64,000 bases of DNA from Bacteroidia bacterium (GTDB lineage: Bacteria; Bacteroidota; Bacteroidia; B-17B0; Aurantibacillaceae). Location: NCBI GenBank assembly GCA_016787895.1, contig JAEUTN010000012.1:1-64000 (forward strand). The letters run 5' to 3'. Below, one piece after another: positions 50,470-56,498 of this stretch. Position numbers and translations under genes: made by a program. Below the pieces are notes generated by a model. That model made no database searches. It saw nothing but the letters and a program-made list of their open reading frames with translations, and was not told the origin of the DNA. Numbering within the stretch: position 1 is the first letter of the stretch; each line of letters starts with the position of its first letter.

Positions 50470-53400
50470 ATGAGAAAAAAACAGCTTAAGAACCGCGCGC
50501 TAAGTGTTCTTGTTTTGCTTTTCCTCATAGCTACAAGCCAGGGCGTTTGCCGCATTTCCTTATCAAACGGTCAAAGTACTTCAATTGAAATGGCTCTGCC
50601 TGATTCGGCTCAACTCTTACAATCAGGCGCCCCTAACGAATCAGACACCGGCGCGTCATCCGCCAAGCTGTTTTTGCTGATAGGAGTGGTGATGCTTATG
50701 CTGATGGTGTTTTTCTCATTTTACAAGGGTTATACTTCCGCCCTAAATAAATCGCTTGATCGTGACGACCAGGCGGAGGAGCGCAGTGAAATGGAAGCCC
50801 GCTGGTTTTTCCTGGCCATAGGATGTTTGTTCAGTTTTGTTGACCTTATTTTTACCCTTTTTGTGGAAGGCTCAACCTTTTTTACCATGGCTACCATTGG
50901 TATGACCGGCCTGTGTTTGTTGTTTTTCGCGAATCTTTACATCCGCGATCTGGTAGTGAAACGAAGTACTTTTTTCCTTGGTGTATTTCATTTTATTCTC
51001 ACGGGTCTTCTCCTGATCCGCGCCTCTGATTGGTCCGCTGAGCTTATTCCATTTGGTTTGTTCTGTTTACTGGTCTTCTGCAGTTTTCTGATATTTAAAA
51101 ACATCTCTCATTTTTGGACCTATAGCCTTGGGCTTGCCGTAGTGCTTTTCAGTCTTTGGGTAAACGGAGCATTCCCGGAACGGCCTACCGCCATTTATTT
51201 TGCCACCCTGTTTATTCTCGGTCTGCTCAACTATGGCATTCAACTGATCAAAAGAAATACCGACAAGTATTTGTTGTTTACCAACAAGATTGTAAACCAT
51301 GGCAGTTCACTGATTGTTGGCACTAACGCGGATGAAAAACTCATTTTTGTGAGTGAAAACGTGAAAGACATTCTGGGTTTCGATCGCAGGGAACTCAACA
51401 GCGACAACTGGTTCAAACAAACCTTGGGGCCGGAGGACAGTGAAGCGGACATCATGGAAAAAATGCGTGTCGCCAAACGCACTGGCAAGATTTATTCCAG
51501 AAAAATGCGGACTGCCTGGAACACCTATAAATGGGTTCAGTGGCAATACAAAAAATTCGGTAATGATGTTTGGATAGGAATAGGACAGGAGGTTACCGAG
51601 TATGTGAAAAAACAGGAACAGTATCAAAACCTGATTCAATCGGCTTCCGACATCATTCACAAAACGGACAAAGAAGGCAACTTTATCTTTTTTAATCCAC
51701 ACCTTGAAAATCTGCTGGGATATGAAGCCGAGGAACTTCTGGGAAAACCTTATACCAGTTTGGTTCGTAAGGATCATGTGAAACGACTGCAAACGTTTTA
51801 CGATCGCTCTACACAAAAACAGGGATTTGAAACCATTGAATTTCCGGCCCTGAAAAAATCGGGTGAAGAAATCTGGCTTTCACAAAACATGACCGTAGAA
51901 CGCGATCTGAACGGGGAAATCACCTCCTACAATTCTATTCTTCGCGACATTACACTGCCAAAACAGGTGGAGCAGGACAACCTGAATAAACAGCTGAAAA
52001 TTGAATTGCACTCCAAACTTCTGAGGGAGATTACGTTTATCGCAACCTCAAAGGAACTTGAATTTGAAGCCATCGTACAAACCATCATTGAAAAAACGGC
52101 CGCAGGTCTTAAATCAGACCGGATTAGTATATGGTATTGTGTAAATCAACATATCCGAAGCGATTGTTTTTATGAGCGCCAAACTAAAAAATTCTGGAGA
52201 GAAGATCTAACCATCGCGAAAGAAAAACACCCACTCTACTTTGGAGCTCTGAAAAAAGGGGAAATCATAGCCGCTGAGGACGTGATGGAACATGAGGCTA
52301 CCCGTGAACTGTTCAACGATTATTTCAGCGATCACCAAACCCAATCCCTGCTTGATGTGCCCATTTTTATGGAAGGCAAACTGGAAGGAGTACTTTGTAA
52401 CGAATCAAAAGAGCACAAACGCATCTGGGATGCTGAGGACATTAATTTCGCGAGGTCGGTAGCTGGTTTAATCACCCTGGCCATTGAGGCCGATAAACGC
52501 AAACAAGCGGAAGCCCAGCTTGAAGAGAGAAGTAAAATTTTATCAGCCATAGGCGCCATAACTGAAAGGCTTCTGGTGAGCAAAGATGCCCTGAAAACAT
52601 TGGGCGAAAATCTTCACTTTTTTGGTGAAGCCTTGAAATGCGGAAGGGTTTACCTTTACGAAAACAACGCTGCAGAAAAAACCCTTCAATTAAAACAGGC
52701 CTGGTACAGTAGTCCTAAAGCCATTGCCTGTGTGCCACTCTGGCGTTCAAATTTTCTGGTGAACAATGTAAACGCCTTTTTTCACGAACACCAGCGTAAC
52801 GTTCACATCAGCATTCATACCAAAGACCTTGAACCCGGTGAATTCAAAACTTTGCTGGAATCCAATAAGGTTCAATCCATGCTGGTTCTGCCGATTCAAA
52901 CCGGAAAAGAGTTTATGGGTTTCCTGGGCATTGATTACGCCGAGGTAAACAGAATCTGGACAAGGGATGTTATCACACTCATGTATTCTCTCATTACCAA
53001 CGTGGTGAATACAATTGACCGACTCAAGAACGAACGCATCATCCTTGAAAGTGAAAACAACTTCAGAGAAATAAATGAAACCATTAAGGATGTGTTTTGG
53101 TTGTACGACAATGAAAAAAACACGTACCTCTATATCAGTCCATCTTGCCAGGAGGTGCTGGGCATGACTCAGCAGGAGTTTTATGACGGTGTAAACTTTG
53201 GCGCCCGATGTGTGTACGAGGAAGATTTGATGAATTACACAAGTGCCATTAACGCGCTGAAAAACAACGATTCGTATGAAATCGAATACCGGATACGCAC
53301 CCCTGAAGGAGGGCTTAAATGGATAAGTGAAAAATCATCCGCCATACGAAACGAAGACGGGAAATTAATCAGGAACTCAGGAATTTGTTCCGACATCAGT

Positions 53401-55086
53401 GAGAAAAAACAAATATTAAATCAGGTACGGCAACTTTCACTGGTGGCTGAAAAAACAAACAACGGTGTGGTGATTCTCGACAGAAACGGATTTGTTCTCT
53501 GGGCAAATCAAAGTTATCTGAATATTTTCGAAACCTCTCTGGATAAGCTGGTCAATAAACGTCCCAGTGATTTATTTGTGTTTAAAAACAACCTTCAGAA
53601 CAAAAGTTCTGACACGGTGAACGGCACCAATTATAACATTGTGTTTGAGGCGGAGACGGAGACGGAGAACAAAAAATGGGTGGAAGTGAACAACACCATT
53701 ATTGAAGATGAGGAAGGCAGCACCGTTCAGCAAATCCAGATTGTAACCGACATCACGCAAAAACGGCTGAAGGACCTGGAATTGGCGCAGCACCGTTCAA
53801 TGCTTCGTAAATACTCCACCTTTCTTGAATACCAGAACGAGCTTAAGGAAAAACTCATGCAAGCCTCTTCCATTGAAGAGATCAGCCGGGTAGCTCTGAA
53901 GTTTGTAAAACAAAACATCAAAAATTGCATTCACATTTCTTTGCTCCTGCTGGATGAAAAAAAACAAAATCTCAGCGGGTATTACATTATTGGCGATAAA
54001 ATTGAACGGGAACGCCATCATGTGAAGAGTTTCAAGAGTTATGAAACCGTTAAAACCGGTGAAATGTATATTGATGCCGATCTGGATGCCAATGAGGAAA
54101 AATCAAGCAGCGACGTGATTTTGCTGGAATATGGCGCCAAGTCCTATGTTGTATTACCATTGATTGATTTACAGGACATCATTGGATTGCTCACCATCAC
54201 CTTCGACATCCCGTTTAACTACAGTGACTCTGAGAAAGAAAACCTGAGGAACCTGGCCATTAACTTAACCACAACCATTCAGAAACTGAATCTGAAAAAT
54301 TCACTTCAGGAGAAAAACAACGACATCCGTGACAGCCTGATTTATGCCAGAAACATTCAAAAGGCCATGTTGCCCGACATCAGAACTGAACTTCCTTCAT
54401 TACAAAAAGTGGTGGTAGTGTTTGAACCAAAGGACATCGTAAGCGGTGATTTTTACTGGGCTAAGGAAAATGAGCGTTACCTCTATCTAGCCCTTGGCGA
54501 TTGCACCGGACATGGCGTTCCCGGCGCCTTTCTGACCATCATTGGCACAAGGATTCTTGAGCAGATTATCCGGGATGAAAAACTGACTGCGCCCGAAGAA
54601 ATTCTCACAGAACTTGACAAGCAGATTTTTTATTCCCTCAATGCAGGTGACAAAGGCATGATCAGAGACGGTATGGAAATTGCCCTGTGTGTAATCGATA
54701 AAACAACCCGGGAACTGCATTTTTCAGGTGTAGGCATGGGGCTCGTTTATCATGTTGGAGAGGAAGAAATTTACCTGAAAGGAAACAGGGGTTCAATTGG
54801 CGATTACCAATTCAATGATGCGGGTTTCGAAAAAAACACCATTGCGCTAACGGGAAAGGAACGGTTTTACATGGCCAGTGATGGATTTCAGGACCAGCTG
54901 GGCGGACAGAATTACAAGCGTTATTCGAAACGGCGTTTGATGGATGATTTAATTGCCATTCACAACCTGGATGCCCTGCAGCAGGAAAAGATCTTAAAAG
55001 AAAATTTAAAAAACCATATGAAAGACCATTTTCAAACCGATGATATCTCTTTAATTGGATTTCAGCTTAAACTTCAAGGCCTATGA
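50470..55086 (+). CDS. Membrane PAS/GAF sensor with C-terminal SpoIIE/PP2C phosphatase
   Basis: 1538 residues from ATG 50470. About eight membrane spans lie in residues 10-275 (for example LFLLIGVVMLMLMVFFSF, IGMTGLCLLFFANLYI, IYFATLFILGLLNYGI). Then: PAS (270-377), PAS (383-500), GAF (517-677), GAF (687-850), PAS (860-983), PAS (987-1100), GAF (1130-1277), a coiled linker SLQEKNNDIRDSLIYARNIQ, and a SpoIIE-type PP2C phosphatase (1293-1533). Metal ligands: Asp of GDFYWA, Asp of LGDCTGHGVPGAF, Asp of RDGMEIAL and Asp of SDGFQDQ and TDDISL. The stop overlaps the SiaC-like gene (ATGA 55083-55086). By position it should be the SiaA/RsbU-like phosphatase acting on the SiaC-like proteins that follow. 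Confidence 0.95.
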   Translation: MRKKQLKNRALSVLVLLFLIATSQGVCRISLSNGQSTSIEMALPDSAQLLQSGAPNESDTGASSAKLFLLIGVVMLMLMVFFSFYKGYTSALNKSLDRDDQAEERSEMEARWFFLAIGCLFSFVDLIFTLFVEGSTFFTMATIGMTGLCLLFFANLYIRDLVVKRSTFFLGVFHFILTGLLLIRASDWSAELIPFGLFCLLVFCSFLIFKNISHFWTYSLGLAVVLFSLWVNGAFPERPTAIYFATLFILGLLNYGIQLIKRNTDKYLLFTNKIVNHGSSLIVGTNADEKLIFVSENVKDILGFDRRELNSDNWFKQTLGPEDSEADIMEKMRVAKRTGKIYSRKMRTAWNTYKWVQWQYKKFGNDVWIGIGQEVTEYVKKQEQYQNLIQSASDIIHKTDKEGNFIFFNPHLENLLGYEAEELLGKPYTSLVRKDHVKRLQTFYDRSTQKQGFETIEFPALKKSGEEIWLSQNMTVERDLNGEITSYNSILRDITLPKQVEQDNLNKQLKIELHSKLLREITFIATSKELEFEAIVQTIIEKTAAGLKSDRISIWYCVNQHIRSDCFYERQTKKFWREDLTIAKEKHPLYFGALKKGEIIAAEDVMEHEATRELFNDYFSDHQTQSLLDVPIFMEGKLEGVLCNESKEHKRIWDAEDINFARSVAGLITLAIEADKRKQAEAQLEERSKILSAIGAITERLLVSKDALKTLGENLHFFGEALKCGRVYLYENNAAEKTLQLKQAWYSSPKAIACVPLWRSNFLVNNVNAFFHEHQRNVHISIHTKDLEPGEFKTLLESNKVQSMLVLPIQTGKEFMGFLGIDYAEVNRIWTRDVITLMYSLITNVVNTIDRLKNERIILESENNFREINETIKDVFWLYDNEKNTYLYISPSCQEVLGMTQQEFYDGVNFGARCVYEEDLMNYTSAINALKNNDSYEIEYRIRTPEGGLKWISEKSSAIRNEDGKLIRNSGICSDISEKKQILNQVRQLSLVAEKTNNGVVILDRNGFVLWANQSYLNIFETSLDKLVNKRPSDLFVFKNNLQNKSSDTVNGTNYNIVFEAETETENKKWVEVNNTIIEDEEGSTVQQIQIVTDITQKRLKDLELAQHRSMLRKYSTFLEYQNELKEKLMQASSIEEISRVALKFVKQNIKNCIHISLLLLDEKKQNLSGYYIIGDKIERERHHVKSFKSYETVKTGEMYIDADLDANEEKSSSDVILLEYGAKSYVVLPLIDLQDIIGLLTITFDIPFNYSDSEKENLRNLAINLTTTIQKLNLKNSLQEKNNDIRDSLIYARNIQKAMLPDIRTELPSLQKVVVVFEPKDIVSGDFYWAKENERYLYLALGDCTGHGVPGAFLTIIGTRILEQIIRDEKLTAPEEILTELDKQIFYSLNAGDKGMIRDGMEIALCVIDKTTRELHFSGVGMGLVYHVGEEEIYLKGNRGSIGDYQFNDAGFEKNTIALTGKERFYMASDGFQDQLGGQNYKRYSKRRLMDDLIAIHNLDALQQEKILKENLKNHMKDHFQTDDISLIGFQLKLQGL

Positions 55087-55454
55087 ACAATCTACGCATT
55101 GCCCCCAGTCAGGAATCTCCAACCATCACCTTTAACACGGATGGCCATTTTAAAATTGAGGGAATCTCTTTGGTTCCCAATGTACACAGCTTTTACAAAC
55201 CGGTTTTTGATTGGCTGGACGAATTTGAAAAAAACCTGCCGCCCAAAATTGTGGTGGAACTGGAATTTGAATACCTCAATACCGCCAGCATCCACACAGT
55301 GGTGACCATTATCAAACGCCTGGTATCCTATACCGAAAAAAACGTTGATTTAAAGGTCATCTGGTGTTATGCCGCCGAGGACGATGATCTTCTGGAGAAC
55401 GGACAAAACTTTATGAATTATGTTAACTTTCCCTTTGAATTTCAAGCCAGATAA
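55083..55454 (+). CDS. siaC: SiaC family (DUF1987) phospho-acceptor protein, copy 1
   Basis: 123 residues. The family layout is clear: SPTITFNTDGHFKIEGISLV, YKPVFDWLDEF, LEFEYLNTASIHTVVTIIKR, VIWCYAAEDDDLLENGQNFM and NFPFEFQAR. Thr67 in EYLNTAS lies at the position phosphorylated in Pseudomonas SiaC (Thr68). The usual SSK after the Thr reads ASIH. SiaC proteins are switched by a kinase (SiaB) and a PP2C phosphatase (SiaA) and in Pseudomonas activate a diguanylate cyclase. Start overlaps the phosphatase stop. Confidence 0.93.
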   Translation: MNNLRIAPSQESPTITFNTDGHFKIEGISLVPNVHSFYKPVFDWLDEFEKNLPPKIVVELEFEYLNTASIHTVVTIIKRLVSYTEKNVDLKVIWCYAAEDDDLLENGQNFMNYVNFPFEFQAR

Positions 55455-55545
55455 GCGGTTCAGGCACGTATAATCAGTACCTTTGGCCGCATGTTAATTT
55501 GTTAAAAATAGTATTAATCACTACATTCATTCCTTTAACCTGAAC

Positions 55546-56109
55546 ATGATCGAAAAACCTGTAATTGAAGACATCCTCGGGGTGATTGTGAGTAATGAGC
55601 GCATCAGCGACTATCTGCTGGTGGTATATGGTCCGTTAAATCAGGATGTATTGGTTTCCACCATACGATTGGCTGAATCGAAATTAAAATTGCAGCAGTT
55701 CCCGCAGGGTCTTATATCCAAAACCAAAGCCATTTGTGCCGAAATTCTTCAGAACATTAACAAACACCAGTTCAAACACGACACCTATCAGCCCTATCTT
55801 GTGCTGGGTTCAAAAGATCATACCCTGTTTATTTATGCAGGCAATATCATTTCAGAAAAATCAAAAGCCATCATCACCGAAAAACTGGAAAATTACCTGA
55901 GTGTAAAAGAAGAGAATTTCAGAAGCTTTTATACCAACGCGTTTAAAAACGCGGTGCTCACTGAAGAAGGAAATGCGGGACTGGGACTCCTTGAAATGTT
56001 TTACCGCTCTAACCGTAATCTTAAATATAACATCAACAAAATTACCGACAATCTCTTTTCTTTTAATCTGAACATAGAACTGTCTCAACAACTGGTACCT
56101 CAAAGCTGA
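55546..56109 (+). CDS. siaB: SiaB-like protein kinase (GHKL fold, DUF6272)
   Basis: 187 residues. A GHKL ATPase fold is suggested by an N-box-like KTKAICAEILQNINKHQ (Glu and Asn at the usual spacing) and a G-box-like EEGNAGLGLLEMFYRS. The N-terminus SNERISDYLLVVYGPLNQDV matches SiaB-type kinases, which phosphorylate SiaC on the conserved Thr and are distantly related to anti-sigma kinases such as RsbW. Located between two SiaC-like genes, 91 bp after the first and 5 bp before the second. Its own promoter cannot be excluded in the 91-bp gap, where I recognise no consensus. Confidence 0.92.
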   Translation: MIEKPVIEDILGVIVSNERISDYLLVVYGPLNQDVLVSTIRLAESKLKLQQFPQGLISKTKAICAEILQNINKHQFKHDTYQPYLVLGSKDHTLFIYAGNIISEKSKAIITEKLENYLSVKEENFRSFYTNAFKNAVLTEEGNAGLGLLEMFYRSNRNLKYNINKITDNLFSFNLNIELSQQLVPQS

Positions 56110-56114
56110 AAACT

Positions 56115-56498
56115 ATGGCCCGCATTGAAATAGAAGCCACCGGAAGTACACCAGAAATTATCCTGGATACTGAAGAAAAAACTCTTCAAATTAAAGGTAT
56201 TTGTACCCCTGAAAACCCGCGCCTCTTCTTTGATCCGCTCTTCCAGGCCATGGAGGATGTTCTGAAAACGAGCCAAAAAATTACCATTGAAATCTGCCTT
56301 GATTATTTTAACACCGGATCATCCAAGTGTTTACTGAACCTCTTTTACATGGTCAGCAACCATCCGACACTTAAAACAAATTCAGAAGTGAACTGGGTAA
56401 TCGAAGATTCAGATCCCGACATCAAAGAGTCAGGCCTATTATTTGAGGAAATTACCGGATTAAAATTCAATTACCTTAACAACAGAAGGCTTTCCTGA
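56115..56498 (+). CDS. siaC: SiaC family (DUF1987) phospho-acceptor protein, copy 2
   Basis: 127 residues. It keeps the canonical signature better than copy 1: IEIEATGSTPEIILDTEEKT, ICTPENPRLFFDPLFQAMED, ICLDYFNTGSSKCLLNLFYM (Thr67 as the predicted phospho-site, followed by GSSK) and VNWVIEDSDPDIKESGLLFE. Five bases after the kinase gene. The C-terminus is slightly extended (LKFNYLNNRRLS). Two acceptors of one kinase could compete or have separate targets; no cyclase, sigma factor or other output gene is adjacent. Confidence 0.92.
   Translation: MARIEIEATGSTPEIILDTEEKTLQIKGICTPENPRLFFDPLFQAMEDVLKTSQKITIEICLDYFNTGSSKCLLNLFYMVSNHPTLKTNSEVNWVIEDSDPDIKESGLLFEEITGLKFNYLNNRRLS

Follow-up and report, generated by a model that had tools for sequence, protein, structure and literature searches.

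The stretch of DNA that we analyzed (the window) comprises positions 1 to 64,000 of contig JAEUTN010000012.1 from the genome of a Bacteroidia bacterium (G000 in our numbering). The open reading frame list and Pfam searches placed a four-gene operon at positions 50470-56498, with genes for a sensor-phosphatase, a SiaC protein (SiaC-A), a SiaB kinase and a second SiaC protein (SiaC-B). The genes and the sites within them are as follows.

50470..55086, + strand: SiaA-like sensor-phosphatase gene (ATG start, 1538 aa; PF07228, PDB 6k4e)
54472..55065, + strand: SpoIIE/PP2C catalytic domain of the sensor (domain searches, alignment to 6k4e)
55083..55454, + strand: SiaC-A gene (123 aa; PF09345, 98 bits; SiaC of PDB 6kko/7e6g, E 9.5e-9; clade A)
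55281..55283, + strand: Thr67 codon of SiaC-A (YLNTASIH), predicted phospho-acceptor aligned with P. aeruginosa Thr68
55546..56109, + strand: SiaB-like GHKL kinase gene (187 aa; PF19788, 66 bits; predicted fold compared with 6kko_A)
55741..55755, + strand: N-box of SiaB, E66-I-L-Q-N70 (E, Q and N invariant; EMTQN in P. aeruginosa SiaB)
55969..55989, + strand: G2 box of SiaB, GNAGLGL (GAGLGL in the P. aeruginosa SiaB chain)
56115..56498, + strand: SiaC-B gene (127 aa; PF09345, 100 bits; clade B)
56313..56315, + strand: Thr67 codon of SiaC-B (YFNTGSSK), predicted phospho-acceptor, Thr or Ser throughout clade B

The stop codon of the sensor gene overlaps the start of siaC-A in an ATGA at 55083-55086, and the siaC-B gene begins 5 bases behind siaB. 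All four open reading frames, with this overlap, lie where a preliminary description of the DNA had put them. Promoter and terminator scans found sites no more numerous than in shuffled sequence.

The sensor-phosphatase has hydrophobic stretches near its N terminus, one at residues 11-29 and a further six between residues 67 and 260. Behind this membrane part, its domains follow in the order PAS (residues 292-363), PAS (394-495), GAF (532-672), a weak GAF (720-842), PAS (887-972), PAS (994-1099), GAF (1133-1266) and SpoIIE/PP2C (1335-1532). The SpoIIE domain scored 61 bits against PF07228, far above the Pfam cut-off, and matched the phosphatase domain of P. aeruginosa SiaA (6k4e) with an E value of 7.7e-33; its GDFY, DCTGHG, SDGF and DDIS motifs align with 6k4e. 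The metal-site motifs are present, marking the protein as a SiaA-related SpoIIE/PP2C phosphatase, and the earlier claim of a 1538-residue membrane sensor ending in a complete phosphatase was confirmed.

The kinase scored well above the Pfam cut-off of 26.6 bits for DUF6272 (PF19788). We modeled its structure with AlphaFold2 (mean pLDDT 84), and the best fold match of the model was P. aeruginosa SiaB as crystallized in complex with SiaC (6kko_A; probability 1.00, TM 0.71/0.77). The next matches were RsbW, UsfX and SpoIIAB. The protein keeps the N-box and G2 box nucleotide-site motifs of the active P. aeruginosa kinase, and the DUF6272 match, the fold and the motifs together identify it as a SiaB-type GHKL kinase.

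None of the four proteins reached the cut-offs of the NCBIfam equivalog models (NF038263, NF038264 and NF038265). The sensor scored 164 of 700 bits, the SiaA model covering only its residues 1251-1549 (in a 1554-aa numbering), the kinase scored 26 of 225 bits, and SiaC-A and SiaC-B scored 71 and 56 of 150 bits. The kinase was also below the cut-off of the NCBIfam SiaB family (66 versus 85 bits).

Both SiaC proteins were far above the PF09345 gathering cut-off of 24.5 bits. In each of them Thr67 lies in a YxNT motif, followed by ASIH in the first copy and GSSK in the second, exactly as previously read from the sequence, and aligns with Thr68, the acceptor of P. aeruginosa SiaC. Across the 75 SiaC domains that we compared, this position was Thr in 55 and Ser in 20, and nothing else. 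In a maximum likelihood tree of the 75 domains, which has few columns and many weak deep forks, the two copies fell into separate clades, A and B, with 98-99% bootstrap support. A GSSK sequence after the acceptor is typical of clade B, its Gly being invariant there. At position 69 clade A has A or S and clade B always G; at position 110 clade A mostly has polar residues and clade B has I or L. Both are among the positions of P. aeruginosa SiaC that contact SiaD (PMC8457831).

Clade A and clade B proteins occur together in seven genomes (G000, G029, G015, G005, G082, G022 and G035). In G005 they are split between two contig ends, each of which breaks off within the same FIST gene, and we infer that these ends belong to one operon. 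In the relatives SiaC-A is generally encoded directly behind the sensor-phosphatase gene and SiaC-B directly behind siaB; a second phosphatase gene is often present as well, and in some cases another kinase gene. When the genes of the window were compared with those of G029, a close relative, siaC-A, siaB and siaC-B had low dN (0.05-0.13) with saturated dS (1.7-2.6), which shows purifying selection on these three genes; the dS of the sensor gene was not estimable.

The preliminary description had counted two SiaC genes. That number holds for the operon, and for the genome as a whole we revise it to six, together with five SiaB domains and 15 SpoIIE domains. Two further SiaC genes, at C6:23591 and C16:157634, fall into the wider A group of the tree, and no siaB or spoIIE gene was present in the stretch read around them.

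Some of the dispersed genes have neighbors of other kinds. The stand-alone A-like SiaC gene on C16, the contig that also holds the window, has a sigma-70-type gene about 3.4 kb away (L030:5326-10003, which is G000:C16:153325-158002). Elsewhere in the genome, a stand-alone SiaB gene sits directly behind a deoxynucleoside-kinase-like gene (L031:9089-10281, G000:C21:88088), and a tandem SiaB-SiaB protein is encoded with SiaC and a convergent SpoIIE gene (L028:8989-12371, G000:C24:922988). The tandem SiaB-SiaB form recurs in other Bacteroidota (L128-L133, L135 and L198). In several genomes of the genus, a stand-alone SiaC gene lies near a gene for a PglZ-domain, PorX-like response regulator (L182-L186).

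The locus resembles SiaABCD of P. aeruginosa (PMC7647112, PMC8457831) in its PP2C phosphatase, in a GHKL kinase that shares fold and motifs with its counterpart there, and in the SiaC threonine within YxNT. It differs in having two SiaC clades in one operon and a soluble PAS/GAF cascade in the sensor, and in lacking SiaD, any GGDEF gene in the genome and a recognizable SiaD docking stalk. The PP2C-kinase-STAS logic and the kinase fold are also those of RsbU/RsbW/RsbV and SpoIIE/SpoIIAB/SpoIIAA, and the chlamydial Rsb system has more than one RsbV, so that there, too, a kinase has more than one acceptor. Unlike these sigma-factor switches, the window encodes the SiaC and SiaB families rather than STAS (PF01740) and RsbW, and no sigma factor gene was found in the operon or among its direct neighbors, either in the window or in relatives. 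The operon is a real and intact variant of the known SiaABC kind of partner switch, without a diguanylate cyclase, and the proposal of such a switch with two distinct SiaC acceptors is supported. No paper on SiaC in Bacteroidota was found in the library of papers that we searched.

In the explanation that we favor, with a probability of about 0.72, the sensor-phosphatase and SiaB set the Thr67 phosphorylation of two SiaC proteins whose targets are not diguanylate cyclases, SiaC-A reporting on the sensor and SiaC-B being the substrate of SiaB. A membrane-anchored multi-PAS/GAF SpoIIE phosphatase and a SiaB-family GHKL kinase would act on the two STAS-like proteins. The sensor would activate its phosphatase, and SiaC-A, perhaps also SiaC-B, would be dephosphorylated and would then bind its targets; SiaB would reverse the dephosphorylation. 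By analogy with P. aeruginosa, SiaC would bind its targets when unphosphorylated. Since its gene overlaps the sensor gene and its clade is usually found right behind a sensor-phosphatase gene, SiaC-A most likely reports directly on the sensor; SiaC-B, whose clade is found right behind siaB, is for that reason most likely phosphorylated directly by SiaB. We infer here the enzyme activities, the direction of the switch and the division of labor between A and B, as well as the operon reduction discussed below.

A relay between the two acceptors is possible, at well under even odds. Dephosphorylated SiaC-A would then be no output but an antagonist occupying SiaB, SiaB would stop phosphorylating SiaC-B, and SiaC-B alone would signal to the target. 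A single SiaB accompanied by both an A and a B acceptor, as found in the window, G029, G015, G022 (contig C121) and G035, would suit such a scheme, as would the differences between A and B at the SiaD-contact positions 69 and 110, and for the chlamydial Rsb system a kinase serving two acceptor proteins has been discussed (PMC11619594). Two parallel channels would instead be open to relatives that have a pair of kinases and a pair of phosphatases (L069, and L066 with L067), and the two stand-alone A-like SiaC genes on C6 and C16 suggest that A-type proteins can act without an adjacent SiaB.

The preliminary description had gone further and had both acceptors competing for one kinase/phosphatase pair. 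The two acceptors of distinct clades stand; the competition is a weakened possibility, since elsewhere the genome encodes a further four SiaB and 14 SpoIIE domains and since the gene order in relatives pairs A with the phosphatase and B with the kinase. A pool of six SiaC acceptors also argues against plain competition, in which one SiaB and one sensor-phosphatase would act on both SiaC proteins and these would buffer each other. The presence of only one kinase gene and one phosphatase gene in the operon speaks for plain competition, which we regard as unlikely.

Our favored explanation also concerns the output. No GGDEF match was found at E <= 0.001 in the window genome, which is 99.99% complete and in 25 contigs. 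The absence of a cyclase gene from view, as originally noted for the operon, is therefore true of the whole genome, a stronger result than had been claimed; a GGDEF partner just outside the operon, named beforehand as a finding that would reduce the operon to the known system, was not found in this genome-wide search. SiaC was present in 85 of the 87 genomes of the family and in all 62 of the high-quality ones, with up to 13 copies per genome, and GGDEF was present in one of the 87, as a broken fragment (a 118-residue frame with an internal stop, 33 bits). We then looked across a sample of 198 genomes of the phylum, where GGDEF was found in 108 and SiaC in 13. All five of the SiaC genomes inside the class of the window lacked GGDEF, and all eight outside it had GGDEF. 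The lack of GGDEF is not an effect of SiaC, because the class is GGDEF-poor in any case; it is partly a trait of the lineage.

A GGDEF gene adjoins siaC in two of the eight SiaC genomes outside the class (G211 and G219). These systems (loci L146 and L147) share with the window the phylum, the SpoIIE-SiaB-SiaC order and homologous proteins, but differ in having a stalk-GGDEF gene next to siaC, which is found nowhere in the class of the window. The gene adjoining siaC in the eight outside genomes often encodes an N-terminal helix with a (S/G)DxxQxKL motif, resembling the SiaC-binding site of P. aeruginosa SiaD; SiaC of P. aeruginosa binds SiaD through Ser82 and Gln86 (PMC8457831). The alignment of the G211 GGDEF protein to SiaD (chain of 7e6g) extends into this helix. 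Outside the class the stalk is modular, being joined to GGDEF (G211, G219), a histidine kinase (G165), a second SpoIIE (G282) or, in a short protein, hydrophobic segments (G246); it also stands alone as a protein of about 90 residues (G262, G270). The adjacency and the motif suggest that SiaC uses the helix in these relatives. At the loci L143:9967, L145:10091, L146:8994, L147:10187, L148:9297, L140:9503 and L144:9706, the docking-like stalk was always beside siaC.

We built a stalk profile from seven seeds and ran it on 80 genomes. It matched in seven of the eight SiaC genomes outside the class with E <= 1.5e-26, these being its own seeds, and in three non-seed copies at 8e-22 to 9e-18. Among the 56 SiaC genomes of the class, including that of the window, nothing rose above noise, the best match (0.0035) lying in a frame with stops; a diverged stalk could escape a profile of seven seeds. 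Since SiaD with its stalk, the defining output, was looked for and neither a GGDEF gene nor a stalk above noise was found, we classify the operon as SiaABC-like rather than SiaABCD. As neither the cyclase nor its docking helix was found in the organism or its near relatives, the operon probably controls something else, and targets that are not diguanylate cyclases and have no recognizable SiaD-type docking stalk form part of the explanation that we favor.

A hidden cyclase, diverged to below recognition by GGDEF profiles, is very improbable: profile searches miss extreme divergence and the genome is in contigs, but those profiles matched in 108 of the 198 sampled phylum members, the nearly complete window genome has no match, and the docking stalk is missing too. 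Similarly slight is the chance that the operon is a degenerate or orphaned system kept by accident after the loss of c-di-GMP signaling; it has no identifiable output gene and lacks the accessory genes of longer operons in relatives, FIST being absent from the whole genome, but its motifs are intact, its dN is low with saturated dS, and SiaC is in every high-quality genome of the family.

To our knowledge, SiaC is known only as an activator of a diguanylate cyclase. Because it is nearly universal and multi-copy in a family without a cyclase or a recognizable stalk, it must have other targets. In ten genomes (G010, G131, G135, G232, G272, G003, G004, G009, G047 and G049), siaC either adjoins a TerB-ABC exporter gene or is one gene away from it. 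The exporter has about 1,020 residues and combines a TerB-like N terminus with an ABC ATPase and an ABC-2 membrane domain. Behind its gene come a lipoprotein gene and a small gene, and in several cases CheR and CheB genes lie upstream. G003, G004 and G009 also encode a second SiaC domain, which is preceded in the same protein by an N-terminal part. In G009 this part resembles the N terminus of the G135 ABC protein, from another family (E 3e-9, 26% identity); for G003 and G004, the BLAST similarity to the exporter N terminus was not significant. On the strength of the adjacency to siaC and of the TerB-like-SiaC fusion, which give the SiaC proteins of the class concrete targets to consider, we rank the exporter first among the candidate targets there. 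The candidacy holds for the class and makes no claim for the window itself, in whose genome only generic ABC ATPases were found within the 1.39 Mb searched (about 39% of the genome).

SiaC/exporter loci are spread across three families (L137:9008-13113, L077, L134, L179, L180, L181, L188, L189 and L196). Fusions of a second SiaC occur at L179, L180, L181 and L188, and the extra domain of L188 resembles the exporter N terminus. The 300-aa lipoprotein encoded behind the exporter was considered as a marker for it and rejected, because it occurs in the window genome without the exporter.

Longer forms of the operon are present in G022, G035, G082 and G005; the short form is that of the window, G029 and G015. 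The long form adds a TonB-dependent-receptor-like protein and a second phosphatase of TPR-SpoIIE type, which in some genomes is joined to a second SiaB. It also encodes DUF7793 proteins, a FIST protein, a histidine kinase and a single-domain receiver. No FIST, TonB-receptor-like or second phosphatase gene is present in the window operon, which looks like a reduced form of the longer one. SiaC-A of the window and of G015 belong to different A subclades, both of which are present in G005. The short form may therefore have had more than one origin, as far as a tree of few columns can suggest. The FIST, histidine kinase and receiver trio of the long form recalls the NosP-NahK-NarR nitric-oxide module (reviewed in PMC8846402); the trio is not in the window, and the long-form receiver, unlike that module, is a single domain without GGDEF or EAL.

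The pairing of receptor and TPR-SpoIIE genes suggests signaling from the outer membrane to a PP2C switch. We tentatively consider a wider scheme, itself doubtful, in which the SiaABC switch of the class would have been retargeted from a stalk-bearing cyclase to membrane transport machinery, namely the TerB-ABC exporter and elsewhere the TonB-dependent receptor with TPR-SpoIIE; the window would be a two-acceptor version, SiaC-A relaying the state of the sensor to SiaB and SiaC-B giving the output.

DUF7793 was considered as a partner of the switch and set aside, none of its nine copies in the window genome lying near the operon, so that no link was shown. Relatives have up to 22 copies of this SpoIIAA-like protein, and its gene lies beside those for single-domain receivers and SiaB-SiaC pairs at L071:13155-13971, L066:9483, L069:6603 and L073:12542. 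At L067, L069, L070, L071, L073, L074, L078 and L079, where SiaB and SiaC are also encoded, a TonB-dependent-receptor-like gene immediately precedes the gene for a TPR-SpoIIE phosphatase.
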